This document shows, piece by piece, positions 25,288 through 60,744 of a stretch of 64,000 nt of DNA (position 1 is the first letter of the stretch; every line of letters starts with the position of its first letter). Source of the stretch: Thermococcus sp. CX2. GTDB taxonomy: Archaea > Methanobacteriota_B > Thermococci > Thermococcales > Thermococcaceae. The DNA lies in NCBI RefSeq assembly GCF_012027555.1, contig NZ_SNUQ01000001.1, positions 1-64,000 on the forward strand, written 5' to 3'. Both the position numbers and the translations under genes were made by a program. Below the pieces are notes generated by a model. The model was not told the origin of the DNA, made no database searches, and saw only the letters and a list, made by a program, of their open reading frames with translations.

Positions 25288-26045
25288 TCATCCTTTATTC
25301 TTTGTATCGAGCCATTTGAACTCTCTTTCAAGCAGTTTGAGGTGCTTCTCCTCGATAGCGGCTGGATCCAGCATGACTATGAGGGTGGCTCCAATCAGTA
25401 TTAGCTTGTCCTTAAGAGTGGTTAGGAACTTGAAAACGCTCTCGAATCCATTTTCAAGGATGAGGTACTCCAAGCCGTCAAAGATAATGACCGTGTTTTG
25501 GTCTGCACTATCAACGAGCTTCTGGAGGAGGGGCGCGAGGGAAGTTGGATGTATGGTGTTTTTCCCCTCTACCTTGGTTATCCATAAGTAGGGGATTCCA
25601 CGCTTTTCAAATACCTCCGGTCTTCTGGTGATGGCAAGAGCCTCTTTGCCCCCCAAGTATGGCAGGATATCCCTAATGTTCCTGCTGGTTAAATAGGCAT
25701 CTGCAGGAAGGGAACCTCACCGTTCATGATTTTCTTGGGGGCTATCTTTACCTCTATGGTGTGCTGCATTTTCCACACATAGGTGAAGACTACTCCACTT
25801 CCCAAGACGAGCAGCACGCTATTGAGTATCTTCATGAACCTGTGCTGGAGAATGTCGTTTATCATGTTCACAAAATAGCCAGTCCAGAACACCGCCGCAC
25901 CCAAGGTAACCCCGTTGAGGGTCTCGCTTCCAAAATATTCCCTGAGCAGTGAATAGGAATGGCGGAGAAGGTAGAGTACCCCCGTCAGCACCAAAAAGCA
26001 CGCTGCCTCTGCCAAGAGTTCAATTGTATTATAGATGTCCCACAT
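25288..26045 (-). pseudogene. DUF835 membrane protein gene split by a frameshift
   Basis: Two abutting frames reconstruct one DUF835 protein. The N-terminal frame (26045-25689) encodes three membrane helices and ends GEVPFLQMPI. A different frame continues, without a gap, as PADAYLTSRNIRDILPYLGGKEAL and the DUF835 core RGIPYLWITKVEG...VIIFDGLEYLILENGF...GATLIVMLDP, to 25288. A missing single base near CCCTTCCTG (about 25700) would restore the frame. The gene is either inactivated, mis-sequenced or read by frameshifting. The family role is unknown; the C-terminal domain has a P-loop-less signalling look. Confidence 0.75.
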
Positions 26046-26110
26046 CGTACCAGGCGCCCGCGGATAGTGCAAAAATGAGTTTTAATAATTTTTTGTTTTG
26101 AGAATCAAAG

Positions 26111-26867
<757 letters not shown>

Positions 26868-26900: not shown

Positions 26901-27326
26901 TTAATCCTTGCCCCCGAAGGCCATGTAGTAGTGAATCAGCTTCTCAACTTCCGAGAAGTCCCTCTCCTCCTTCCCGAGCATCTCTCTCAGCCTCTTGTTC
27001 TCCGCTATCATTCCGGAGAGCTGGATTCCGAGGTTCTGGTTGTCGAGCGCTATATAATAGGAGCGGAACTTCAGGGGCGACCACTTTCCCTCGAGCTCGT
27101 ATAGCTCCTTTTCGAGAGCATCTATCTCCTTCTCAAGCTTTTCAAAGGCCTCCTCGTCGGCGTCGACTTCATCATCCACGTAGCCATGGAGGAGTATTAT
27201 CCTTATGGCCTCCTCCAGCCTGAAGCCGTAGCGCTCGCACAGTTCCTCTATCCTTTCGAGGGTCTCATCTTGAACCCTGAAAGTAATCCTCCGCCAGCCC
27301 CTCCGCGGCTTAACGGTTATTTTCAT
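26901..27326 (-). CDS. RHH-like/coiled-coil protein of the fluoride operon
   Basis: A 141-residue protein. The N-terminal 55 residues (WRRITFRVQDETLERIEELCERYGFRLEEAIRIILLHGY) look like a ribbon-helix-helix DNA-binding fold. A charged coiled coil of about 35 residues follows (EAFEKLEKEIDALEKELYELEG) and then a helical tail. No family is recognised with confidence. It overlaps the preceding gene by 17 nt and is followed by crcB, so a DNA-binding or scaffold role in the fluoride operon is a guess. Confidence 0.75.
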   Translation of the reverse strand: MKITVKPRRGWRRITFRVQDETLERIEELCERYGFRLEEAIRIILLHGYVDDEVDADEEAFEKLEKEIDALEKELYELEGKWSPLKFRSYYIALDNQNLGIQLSGMIAENKRLREMLGKEERDFSEVEKLIHYYMAFGGKD

Positions 27327-27624
27327 CCCTCTTTTCCTCCAGCTCTTTTCTAAGTCTCTTGTTCTCCTCGCTGAGTTCCTTCCTAAAGGCCATCAAAAAC
27401 TCCTTATCCCTCTTTGCCTTATCCTCGAACTCGAGCAGCTCGCGATAGTTCCGCCTCATCTCGCTGAGCCTCTTCTCCAGCCTGGCCCTCTGCTCCAGGA
27501 GGAACCGCAACTTGAGGGCTTTTAGGGTTCTTTCAAGCCCTTCCAGGTCTTTGAAGCGTCTCTCTATCTCCCGCCGGTTCCTCCGTATCTCAGCCAGCTC
27601 CTCGGGGCTTACTTCTATCTCCAT
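27310..27624 (-). CDS. Coiled-coil protein of the fluoride operon
   Basis: A 104-residue, almost wholly helical protein with heptad-like runs of Leu, Arg and Glu (RRNRREIERRFKDLEGLERTLKALKLRF...). It has no membrane segment or catalytic motif. ATG follows GGGGAG and overlaps the DUF6062 stop by 10 nt (ATGGAGATAG). It overlaps the RHH-like gene by 17 nt at its end, and the two coiled coils may pair. Confidence 0.75.
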   Translation of the reverse strand: MEIEVSPEELAEIRRNRREIERRFKDLEGLERTLKALKLRFLLEQRARLEKRLSEMRRNYRELLEFEDKAKRDKEFLMAFRKELSEENKRLRKELEEKRDENNR

Positions 27625-28307
27625 AGCAAAACTCCCCTTGTCCTCTTTTTTCGCTCCTTCTTCCTTAGGGTTGCCCCGTTTTCGAGCCCTTTAAGCGCCT
27701 CTATAGCCAGTGGAAGGGATGAGACCTCTTCTTTCGTGGGCCTTTCGGTTGCCCTATAGTCGAACTTGTCTATGAGAGAGTTCATCCTTTCCCTGAGCTT
27801 CTTCAGCTTCTCCAGCTGGACTTTTCTGAGCCTCTCCGCGCTCTGGGGATTTTTCTCCCTGAGGATTGAGTCTATCATCTCGTGGTGCCTTTTGCAGAGG
27901 ATTGCCTCCGATGACTCATAAACGGGAAGGAGCTCCTCAATCCTCTCCGTGATAGCCTCCACCGTGTCCTTTTCCTTCTCCTCCACGAGAAGGCACAGGA
28001 AGCACTCGCCTTCCTTGACCTTTTCCCGGCTTTCGAGGGTTTTGATGTAAGTTGAAAGCATGTGCTCGTAGATTATCGCCACTCCCAGCGGGCCGAGCAA
28101 CGGGTTCGAGTAGGCCTTTTTGAGGGTCTTCCAGGCGTGGTAGGTGCAGAGGCCAAGGCTCTCCTTGAACTTGGCCCTAACAGCGGGGTCGTTCACGTGC
28201 TCGTAGAGGATTGTATCGATTTCAGACTCCTCGTATTCTATGAGTATCCTGCAGACTGGGCAGCCCTCCTTCATAGCCTCCCTGAGGTATATCCCCACGA
28301 TATCCAT
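27615..28307 (-). CDS. DUF6062-like protein with paired Cys/His motifs
   Basis: A 230-residue cytoplasmic protein with four metal-binding-like motifs: CPVC near the N-terminus, CTYH, CFLC in the middle and CKRH. The arrangement suggests two internal repeats, each with a CxxC and a CxxH half-site, as in the DUF6062 family. Zinc or iron binding is inferred. The ATG overlaps the stop of the toroid gene as TGATG. It is the second gene of the fluoride-riboswitch-like operon. Confidence 0.75.
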   Translation of the reverse strand: MDIVGIYLREAMKEGCPVCRILIEYEESEIDTILYEHVNDPAVRAKFKESLGLCTYHAWKTLKKAYSNPLLGPLGVAIIYEHMLSTYIKTLESREKVKEGECFLCLLVEEKEKDTVEAITERIEELLPVYESSEAILCKRHHEMIDSILREKNPQSAERLRKVQLEKLKKLRERMNSLIDKFDYRATERPTKEEVSSLPLAIEALKGLENGATLRKKERKKRTRGVLLWR

Positions 28308-29164
28308 CAGTACCACTTCAGTAGTTCGTCGAGGGCTTTCACGGCTCTGTACGTGTTCTGGAAGTTAGATATGCCCATCTCCAGCGAGCGCCTGAAGCCT
28401 CCGTTGGGATTCTGCAGTGCCCGGATGAACCTGATGTGGCCCCCTACATAGCGCGCCCTCTTGCCGAGAAGACTGAGACCTCTTGTGGCATAGAACGTCG
28501 GCTCCAGGTAGGGGGGCAGCGAGTAGGGCACCTCGGTAAAGCCGCCGTAGACCTCGCATCTGTAGAAGTGGGTGGTGTCTGGGACGGCATAGCCAAGGCC
28601 CTTGAGGGTGAAGAGGGCCTGGTAGGTCATGGTCGTGGTGGCCCCCTTCACCCCGAAGCCGTCTCCCTTGCGGAACCCCATCACGAACTCGCGTATCCTT
28701 TCCTTGGTCTCGCCGTCCATACGGTAACCCACGGCCGCCAGCGCCCTCATGGCCCAGTAGGTTGCCTCCAGGGGTGTGGCAGTTCCGAACTCCTCACTTC
28801 CGCCGAGGCCAACGGCGAACTTCCCTTCTAGCGGGTTGTATTTGGAGAAGAGCAGGTCCAGCTTTTCTCTTGCCAGGTCTCTCGCTCCCAGTAATGACAG
28901 TGCCTCGATGGCCATTGCAACGGCCACCACTGCCGTCTGCATCTGGGCGGAAGTGTAAAGGAACTCCACTGTCTTCTCCCTCTCGGGAATTTCGAGCCCG
29001 AGTAGGTCGTAAATCTTTACCGCGTAGTACGTGTCGTTAATGTTGGTCTCGTCCAAAACGCTCACGAAGCAGTAGCCGCCGTCCTCGTGGCGCCTCTCCT
29101 CAACGTAGCGGATGAGCGCATCAGCGTTAATAAACCTGCCAATCTCACTCAGCTTCGAGCCCAT
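28307..29164 (-). CDS. Prenyltransferase/squalene-oxidase repeat (alpha-toroid) protein
   Basis: A 285-residue protein made of alpha-alpha barrel repeats of the prenyltransferase and squalene oxidase type (EDGGYCF, TYWAMRALAAVGY, GDGFGVKGATTTMTYQALFTLKGLGY, NPNGGFRR...NTYRAVKAL). No cyclase DxDD motif is visible, so it is probably a binding module or an enzyme of another kind. The ATG at 29164 follows GGAGGCGG. It is the first gene after the riboswitch-like leader. Confidence 0.8.
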   Translation of the reverse strand: MGSKLSEIGRFINADALIRYVEERRHEDGGYCFVSVLDETNINDTYYAVKIYDLLGLEIPEREKTVEFLYTSAQMQTAVVAVAMAIEALSLLGARDLAREKLDLLFSKYNPLEGKFAVGLGGSEEFGTATPLEATYWAMRALAAVGYRMDGETKERIREFVMGFRKGDGFGVKGATTTMTYQALFTLKGLGYAVPDTTHFYRCEVYGGFTEVPYSLPPYLEPTFYATRGLSLLGKRARYVGGHIRFIRALQNPNGGFRRSLEMGISNFQNTYRAVKALDELLKWY

Positions 29165-29189
29165 TCTACCGCCTCCCATTATCTCTGGC

Positions 29190-29255
29190 AGAGAACAGGC
29201 GTCATCAGCCCAAAGCGGGCGGTTCGGCTCGAAGCCCGGGCGGACGCCATCGCCC
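29190..29255 (-). promoter_or_regulatory. Fluoride riboswitch (crcB motif)
   Basis: On the minus strand the RNA begins GGGCGATGGCGTCCGCCC, has a hairpin GGCT-CGA-AGCC, then GAACCGCCC, a stem GCCC-GCTTT-GGGC and finally TGATGACGCCTGTTC. These are the parts of the crcB motif: pseudoknot strands GGGCG/CGCCC, helix P1 GGCGTC/GACGCC (29243-29248 with 29198-29203), AACCGCC and TGATGA. The 5' end falls 25 nt after a TATA box at 29276-29283. The conserved ACCGCC (29218-29223) is complementary to GGCGGT in the ribosome binding site at 29168-29173. Confidence 0.85.
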
Positions 29256-29275
29256 GAAAACCCTTCGAATGGCGG

Positions 29276-29283
29276 TTAAAAAC
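29276..29283 (-). promoter_or_regulatory. Promoter (TATA) of the fluoride-riboswitch operon
   Basis: On the minus strand the element reads ACGTTTTTAACC and is the only good box A before the leader. Counting 25 nt downstream gives a start at about 29255, exactly the first base of the riboswitch motif. Confidence 0.6.
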
Positions 29284-34022: not shown

Positions 34023-35893
34023 GCGCGGGGTCTCCTGGAGTCTTATTGAAACTACAGGTAGGCGCTATCGTCATAGGCGCTGTCTTCGTCCTCTTTCAAT
34101 TCTCCTAGAGTCTTATTGAAACAAAACGAGGCGCCGCATTGAAACCTCCTCAAACACACCATAGCTAAACAGATAGCGATAACTTTCAATTCTCCTAGAG
34201 TCTTATTGAAACCTCACAAGGCAAGTGGCGGAGAACATTCTAAAGACGTCTTTCAATTCTCCTAGAGTCTTATTGAAACGTCCAGGTCCACTGGCACAGG
34301 GTAGTTTTTGAGGTCGTCTTTCAATTCTCCTAGAGTCTTATTGAAACTCAAACCTGAATCTAATCACGCCTGGAGTTTTGATTATTCTTTCAATTCTCCT
34401 AGAGTCTTATTGAAACTCCAGCTCGGCGAAGCCCTCCTTAAGGCCGCCCCAGACTTTCAATTCTCCTAGAGTCTTATTGAAACCTGGACGCTCAGGCGTA
34501 TCTTAGTAAGGTCTATCTCCTTCTTTCAATTCTCCTAGAGTCTTATTGAAACACGGAAGCTTCCGAGCCTCCGGGTCGAGGAAACACAGCTTTCAATTCT
34601 CCTAGAGTCTTATTGAAACAGAAGCTTTAGAAGATGCTAAACGATACGAGAACGCTCTTTCAATTCTCCTAGAGTCTTATTGAAACCTGGGGAGAGGTTG
34701 AGGAGCGTGATGGCCGTGGTTGACTTTCAATTCTCCTAGAGTCTTATTGAAACTGAACTGGTCTTTCATCTGCTCATACCTCTTGTATATCTTTCAATTC
34801 TCCTAGAGTCTTATTGAAACCTACGATAGCAATGGGGACCTTCTGGCCAGGGAGGACTTTCAATTCTCCTAGAGTCTTATTGAAACGCGCGTCAGGCTTC
34901 AGAAGAAGAATGGCCTGCCCATCACTTTCAATTCTCCTAGAGTCTTATTGAAACCTCTTGACCGTCAACGTAGAGCCTGTACCTGTACTGCTTTCAATTC
35001 TCCTAGAGTCTTATTGAAACAAGACCCTCGAAGAGAAGACCGACGACCACGAAAGACTTTCAATTCTCCTAGAGTCTTATTGAAACGAGCTTTCCCTCCG
35101 TAAACAGATGGGAGGCCACTAGTTCTTTCAATTCTCCTAGAGTCTTATTGAAACTCCCGAAAGAAGAGGACAAGCCGAGTGGCAATAACAGCCTTTCAAT
35201 TCTCCTAGAGTCTTATTGAAACGTTGATGCAAGCACCACCGACTTCTACGTTAACGTCCTTTCAATTCTCCTAGAGTCTTATTGAAACGACAAATTACGG
35301 ACTATTGGCAACTTTCAAGCTCTATTCTTTCAATTCTCCTAGAGTCTTATTGAAACCCCAAGTTCCGCAGGCTTTTCAACCAGGAGGACTACGCTTTCAA
35401 TTCTCCTAGAGTCTTATTGAAACCCACTCCCCCGCCTGTCTTTTTCCTTTCCTTTCCCAACTTTCAATTCTCCTAGAGTCTTATTGAAACCTGATAAATA
35501 GCAAATGCCACAAGTAAGCCCGGTATGCTTTCAATTCTCCTAGAGTCTTATTGAAACGTATCGCTTCCCTTCTAAGCTCCTCTTCTATCTCATCACTTTC
35601 AATTCTCCTAGAGTCTTATTGAAACCGAAAAGAACCGTAAGATTCTCGAAGCCCAAAAAAGAGCTTTCAATTCTCCTAGAGTCTTATTGAAACACTCTCA
35701 TTAATGAGATTGGGGGGGGTCTAAATGACTTTCAATTCTCCTAGAGTCTTATTGAAACTGGGGTTTGAGAGTTCTTAGGGAAGCAGCCTACTTAGCTTTC
35801 AATTCTCCTAGAGTCTTATTGAAACAGTCTTCCCTGATCCAAACTCTCCGAAGAACTCGCTAACTTTCAATTCTCCTAGAGTCTTATTGAAAC
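34023..35893 (-). CRISPR. CRISPR array, 27 intact repeats plus degenerate and remnant repeats
   Basis: The 30-nt repeat read on the plus strand is CTTTCAATTCTCCTA then GAGTCTTATTGAAAC. In its usual orientation (minus strand) it begins GTTTCAATAAGAC and ends GAATTGAAAG, as in Thermococcales. Twenty-seven copies, from 34093 to 35893, look identical. The leader-distal copy at 34023-34052 has lost its first 8 nt and has one further change. A repeat remnant ATTGAAAC lies at 34138-34145. Spacers are 35-40 nt, mostly 36-38. Leader and transcription start lie on the right. No cas genes are in the window. Confidence 0.99.
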
Positions 35894-60399: not shown

Positions 60400-60744
60400 G
60401 GGCTTTCTGCCCTCTGAACTTTTCTATTCTCTTTCATGAAATGTCTCGAATAGTAAGGGGCCCTAATAAGCTCCCATGCCATATCCATACCTCGGCCGAT
60501 ATATTATCACGGTAATAATTACTGCGAGAATAGTTCTCAGAATCCATCCGTCCTCAATTTTGACAAATCCCTGCCCAACGGCGATTAGTTAAGTTTTTAA
60601 ACTCATCCCTCAAGTTCACCTCGGAACTCATGAGGTTCCCTCGAGAAAAAGGCGGGTTTCCCGCCCGAGGGAGCCGAAGTTCGAAAGATTTAAAAAGCCA
60701 TCCTAGTCAAACGAGACTAGACCAAAATTCGGAGGTGTTTGAAA
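60400..60744. other. Intergenic region with structured element upstream of EF-1alpha
   Basis: The 345 nt contain the EF-1alpha promoter (60682-60697). Upstream lies a structured stretch: GGCGGG-TTT-CCCGCC (60651-60665) is nested in TCCCTCG/CGAGGGA (60637-60643 and 60666-60672). A mutually exclusive hairpin GGAAC/GTTCC lies at 60623-60639. A palindromic TATA (AAGTTTTTAAACTC, about 60591-60604) precedes both. A minus-strand open frame 60588-60463 encodes a hydrophobic segment ending RPRYGYGMGAY but has no early start codon. Confidence 0.4.
60682..60697 (+). promoter_or_regulatory. Promoter of EF-1alpha
   Basis: CGAAAGATTTAAAAAG is a strong Thermococcales BRE plus box A about 50-60 nt upstream of the ATG. 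The ribosome binding site GGAGGTGTTTG follows. Confidence 0.75.

Follow-up and report, generated by a model that had tools for sequence, protein, structure and literature searches.

A 64,000-nucleotide stretch of DNA from Thermococcus sp. CX2 (here called the window) contains a fluoride riboswitch that probably switches on translation of the gene directly behind it, encoding an alpha-alpha toroid protein (the toroid), and with it, by coupling or co-transcription, the genes that follow, as cytoplasmic fluoride rises. Without fluoride, the aptamer strands would be available to pair with the toroid initiation site: GCTTCGAGCC plus ACCGCC would pair with the Shine-Dalgarno sequence (SD), the start codon, and the first codons (helix A), and an overlapping hairpin, formed by GCCTGTTCT with AGAATGGGC (hairpin B), would cover the AUG and take up the end of a pseudoknot strand. 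When fluoride is present, P1, P2, and the pseudoknot would be locked, the anti-start strands would be occupied, and the ribosome could start. The regulated unit would consist of the toroid, DUF6062, two coiled-coil proteins, CrcB, and DUF190, the part of CrcB being fluoride export. We infer the direction of switching, its translational level, and the role of the proteins without known function.

The fluoride riboswitch and the genes behind it

The initial annotation had read the leader as a fluoride riboswitch carrying all conserved parts of the crcB motif. A covariance search with Rfam bore this out, with a score well above the cut-off (Table 1), and every one of the parts named was present. 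Nonetheless, the names of two of them had been swapped: in Rfam and in published structures, the nested P1 pairs GGGCG with CGCCC, whereas GGCGTC and GACGCC form the pseudoknot. The alignment to RF01734 spans the full model (1-64) and is the only match to it in the whole genome; the aptamer proper starts at 29255 and opens with GGGCGATG. P1, P2, and pseudoknot pairs are all present in this alignment and are conserved in 64 leaders. A TATA box, TTTTTAA, was found upstream of the first aptamer base, as had been claimed, at a distance of 21-28 nt, and most homologous leaders have the TATA 8-mer with its 5' end at position -29/-28 relative to the aptamer. The leader forms the 5' UTR of a fluoride-related unit in which crcB is gene 5. 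It is a genuine, well-conserved member of the known fluoride riboswitch class, with predicted ligand binding; like other members of RF01734, it has all aptamer elements, scores above the curated threshold, and is located before crcB, whereas it differs in being a GC-rich hyperthermophile version with an inserted hairpin that carries a strand antisense to the start region.

The presence of this riboswitch in the Thermococcales is already known. It was predicted in this archaeal group in 2010 and detected by RNA-seq in 2014, and the T. kodakarensis ortholog has been published. The T. kodakarensis switch is referred to in the literature as the only natural archaeal riboswitch to have been tested by experiment, and a paper citing the in vivo work has it as presumably translational. 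New here are the Thermococcales-wide distribution, the toroid as the constant first gene, and the restriction of DUF6062 to the cluster.

Table 1. Features of the fluoride riboswitch locus (window coordinates)
Feature	Position	Strand	Basis
Fluoride riboswitch aptamer, Rfam match	29189..29263	-	RF01734, 50.7 bits, gathering score 34, E 4e-11
P1 stem GGGCG/CGCCC, loop with pseudoknot 5' strand GGCGTC (29248-29243)	29238..29255	-	Rfam consensus structure; invariant in relatives
Pseudoknot 3' strand GACGCC	29198..29203	-	Rfam consensus structure; leader alignment
TATA box of operon promoter (GTTTTTAA)	29276..29283	-	Sequence; position kept in homologous loci
Putative anti-start strand 1, GCTTCGAGCC, in hairpin inserted between P1 and AACCGCC	29226..29235	-	Reverse complement of toroid codons 2-5 (GGCTCGAAGC)
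Putative anti-SD strand ACCGCC, part of conserved AACCGCC / P2 5' side	29218..29223	-	Reverse complement of SD-region GGCGGT
Predicted 5' arm of hairpin B, GCCTGTTCT plus CTGCC (GCC = pseudoknot strand end)	29187..29200	-	Fold z-scores
Translation initiation region, SD GGAGGCGG, AUG 29164-29162, codons 2-4 GGC TCG AAG	29152..29176	-	Predicted to pair in both anti-start structures
Gene 1, alpha-alpha toroid protein (285 aa with Met), first after riboswitch	28307..29164	-	PF00432 (Prenyltrans); AlphaFold, mean pLDDT 91.5; fold match
Gene 2, DUF6062 protein, two conserved CxxC...CxxH sets	27615..28307	-	PF19538, 66.5 bits; conserved residues
Gene 3, coiled-coil protein 1 (104 aa)	27310..27624	-	No family; relatives' homologs in same place
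Gene 4, coiled-coil protein 2 (141 aa)	26901..27326	-	N-terminal ribbon-helix-helix PF01402, 18.3 bits, below cut-off 20.5
Gene 5, CrcB/Fluc fluoride channel (123 aa)	26496..26867	-	PF02537, 104 bits (cut-off 32.9); TIGR00494, 96.8 bits (cut-off 80.45)
Gene 6, DUF190 (COG1993, PII-like)	26111..26491	-	PF02641, 126 bits

The six genes stand in the order first described; neighbors overlap or lie no more than 33 nt apart, the 33-nt gap being the one before CrcB. CrcB passes the equivalog model TIGR00494, and coiled-coil protein 1 had no family match in the Pfam search. The conserved sets of DUF6062 (C16, C19, C54, and H57; C102, C105, C138, and H141) suggest zinc binding. The AlphaFold model of the toroid is confident and shares the alpha-alpha toroid fold of RabGGTase beta and squalene-hopene cyclase (Foldseek E 6e-6; TM-score up to 0.72, to 1dce_B). 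In contrast to these enzymes, in a by-eye alignment on conserved columns the zinc-ligand positions of RabGGTase beta (D, C, H) are E220, T222, and Q268 in the toroid, and the DxDD position of squalene-hopene cyclase reads N40-I-N42-D43; both the catalytic zinc ligands and the DxDD motif seem to be absent. A PDB sequence search with the toroid and DUF6062 returned weak matches only. Behind DUF190, at 25288-26072, are two further minus-strand genes (a 127-aa protein without family and a DUF835 protein) with gaps of <40 nt; they may be co-transcribed with the operon, and the same place is kept in only some relatives. Elsewhere in the window, we observed a CRISPR array on the minus strand (34093-35893; 27 repeats matching CRISPR-DR6) and an SscA RNA (60623-60721; 86.1 bits).

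Conservation and transcription of the cluster

Among 94 Thermococcales genomes, 88 carry the riboswitch, and the first gene behind the leader type found here is always the toroid. The cluster order in relatives is riboswitch, toroid, optional DUF6062, optional coiled-coil pair, crcB, and DUF190, with crcB staying in the cluster at about 68 loci. The toroid itself was found in 90 of the 94 genomes, and the four without it are all incomplete. Two toroid genomes have no riboswitch match. One of these (G012) lacks crcB, and of its aptamer only the last part, GATGGCGCCTATTCT, is left ahead of an intact toroid; this site (L151:1000-1330) is a natural loss of most of a fluoride aptamer. The other (G080) has kept crcB, and its toroid is broken. 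DUF6062 occurs in 55 genomes, by coordinates always adjoining a toroid-type riboswitch and nowhere else in these genomes. No toroid relatives outside the Thermococcales were found in a phylum-wide search and a scan with two peptide patterns. We also observed a CPA-type Na+/H+ exchanger gene (PF00999; Pfam check on L076 only) on the opposite strand inside the cluster, between coiled-coil 2 and crcB, at L076:3650-4939 and in about seven further genomes; in L093 (G023), it is interrupted by an apparent TnpB-type gene.

The uncharacterised genes had been proposed as members of a fluoride stress system. That they belong to a riboswitch-linked unit holds across this archaeal order, the toroid being always first and DUF6062 being found only here; these proteins may help the cell to survive fluoride. 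This conserved linkage supports membership of the toroid, DUF6062, and coiled-coil genes in a fluoride regulon, functions aside. The toroid accompanies the switch throughout and probably assists in the response to fluoride.

An unbroken six-gene operon had been proposed, and the gene order and the short gaps agree with it. In T. kodakarensis, the crcB RNA upstream of TK0513-TK0514 lies, as in the window, before the gene preceding crcB; a primary start site of crcB itself was mapped between TK0513 and TK0514 (crcB), and in the authors' view the riboswitch is not the main control of crcB (PMC4247193). It is conceivable, if somewhat unlikely, that the riboswitch mainly governs the toroid (with DUF6062 and the coiled coils), while crcB and DUF190 largely follow a promoter of their own and no single fluoride-controlled unit exists. 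In line with this, the Pyrococcus-like genus (G004-G011) has the riboswitch with the toroid, plus the coiled-coil pair in most, and carries crcB at another site that has no riboswitch but a TATA-like sequence of its own; the same separation is seen in G020, where riboswitch and toroid stand together. Moreover, using a score learned from riboswitch promoters, we found a TATA-like box before crcB above the background limit in 13 of 69 loci. The window differs from T. kodakarensis, however, in that DUF6062 and the coiled-coil pair separate the first gene from crcB and in the absence of a TATA-like box before crcB (score 4.3 versus a background 95% limit of 8.9). The tight spacing and the retention of crcB in the cluster at most loci likewise argue against a separate promoter. 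In this window, a putative single transcript for all six genes is likely.

Predicted pairing between the aptamer and the initiation site

The toroid initiation site GGCGGTAGAATGGGCTCGAAGC is approximately the reverse complement of the aptamer stretch GCTTCGAGCCGAACCGCC. In a competition test based on duplex energies and folds, the initiation region could pair with aptamer strands in conflict with the ligand-bound fold. The aptamer-start duplex averaged -36.0 kcal/mol over 81 leaders; the null, made up of other windows from the same loci, averaged -19.7 kcal/mol. In the Pyrococcus-like genus, where the P2 strand continues into CCGCCTCCC, matching the SD GGGAGG, the duplex reached -45.6 to -49.5 kcal/mol, and no null window was as good. 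In an alignment of 64 leaders, 93.8% of the cells of helix A pair, compared to 26-45% with the helix slid. Furthermore, toroid codons 2 to 4 are GGC, TCG, and AAG in 100, 96, and 100%, respectively, of the sequences having those residues, while at conserved four- and sixfold columns elsewhere in the gene the dominant codon reaches only about 45%, and position 3 of codon 5 is free to vary. The near absence of synonymous variation in codons 2 to 4 points to nucleotide selection exactly at the pairing site.

Hairpin B, which covers the AUG and uses the pseudoknot strand end, gave a mean fold z-score of -3.5 over 81 leaders, with values below -2 in 71 of them. In minimum-energy folds, the start was sequestered in most leaders examined, at both 37 and 85°C. 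With the aptamer locked, the start became more accessible in the model at 85°C (0.50-0.66, up from 0.39) and did not open at 37°C; these energy models leave the pseudoknot itself untreated.

For helix A, we found one double change and no excess of compensatory covariation over shuffles, because the sequences are nearly invariant, and in rows retaining the helix single changes that keep or break pairs numbered 25:25. The inserted strand has been lost in about nine genomes, in most of which the start sequence is unchanged, so helix A is dispensable in those genomes. In three of the roughly nine (G022, G065, and G045), the start codons have changed as well. A tree-based test for co-loss of the insert and the start motif pointed in the same direction and was not significant, with only three independent lineages.

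These losses bear on an alternative that we judge unlikely, namely, that the aptamer-start complementarity is a by-product and that conservation of the first codons serves hairpin B or efficient initiation rather than pairing with the insert. It would account for the start sequence being kept in the insert-less genomes G041, G050, G054, G055, and G056 and for the strong hairpin B in those of these genomes that were inspected. It fits poorly with the conserved insert loop CTTCGAG, given that the hairpin tolerates other sequences (G050 and G055), and with the alteration of both sequences in G022, G065, and G045. Quite improbable, in our view, is a transcriptional switch of the sort known from many bacterial fluoride riboswitches, in which fluoride would keep transcription from ending early, in the leader or behind it. 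Terminators are often overlapped by the bacterial representatives, and the T. kodakarensis crcB RNA was seen as an 86-nt RNA in growing cells (PMC4247193); 86 nt, however, is also the length expected of the 5' UTR. Neither hairpin is followed in the leaders by the T-run that a terminator would need, and the structures cover the SD and start codon instead. Taken together, the conserved complementarity, the folds, and the modelled accessibility favor a translational ON switch.

A second fluoride riboswitch and a possible switch design in the Thermococcales

Fifteen genomes contain a second fluoride riboswitch, located before the NuoH-like gene that opens a Hyf-like operon, and all 14 genomes with an ortholog of this NuoH-like gene have it. 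An example lies at L031:1226-7799, with 14 further genomes including L034, L050, L059, and L061. The operon is of the complex I type, with NuoH-, HyfE-, HyfF-, NuoD-, NuoB-, and HyfB-like genes behind valS; by eye, the NiFe cysteine motifs of its NuoD-like subunit seem to be missing. The occurrence of fluoride motifs ahead of formate hydrogenlyase genes was already described in 2010, and it is listed as one of the most frequent associations. In leaders of the second type, GACGCC is repeated at the ribosome site, where it might act as a decoy that captures the pseudoknot loop, with a pairing energy that is only moderately unusual (3.3% of null windows were as good). In nine of the fifteen second-type aptamers (L059, L068, L115-L120, and L124), the conserved GGCGATG reads GGCGAAG, a U-to-A change near the ion-binding site (GAUG to GAAG); altered affinity or an altered ligand is possible in these aptamers. 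Insert loss in toroid-type (class I) leaders was found in 8 of 15 genomes with the second riboswitch and in 1 of 66 without it (Fisher 1.6e-6, uncorrected for relatedness; insert-less leaders L035, L051, L058, L109, L110, L112, L113, L123, and L125).

We give an even chance to a broader reading, according to which the Thermococcales have their own translational fluoride riboswitch design. The aptamer would be antisense to the SD, the start, and the first codons, with the toroid coding sequence as part of the switch; on the second platform, before the Hyf-like operon, the pseudoknot strand GACGCC would recur at the ribosome site as a decoy; and the toroid, not CrcB, would be the ancestral constant target. 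In the literature examined, whose reach did not extend to Speed et al. 2018, no description of the start-site mechanism was found.

Very few natural archaeal riboswitches have a worked-out switching mechanism, and a conserved antisense pairing would offer a concrete, testable one working at 80-100°C. For use of the leader as an inducible expression tool, codons 2 to 5 may need to be kept. The linkage of the toroid and the DUF6062 protein, both of so far unassigned function, to the riboswitch points to them as parts of fluoride tolerance.
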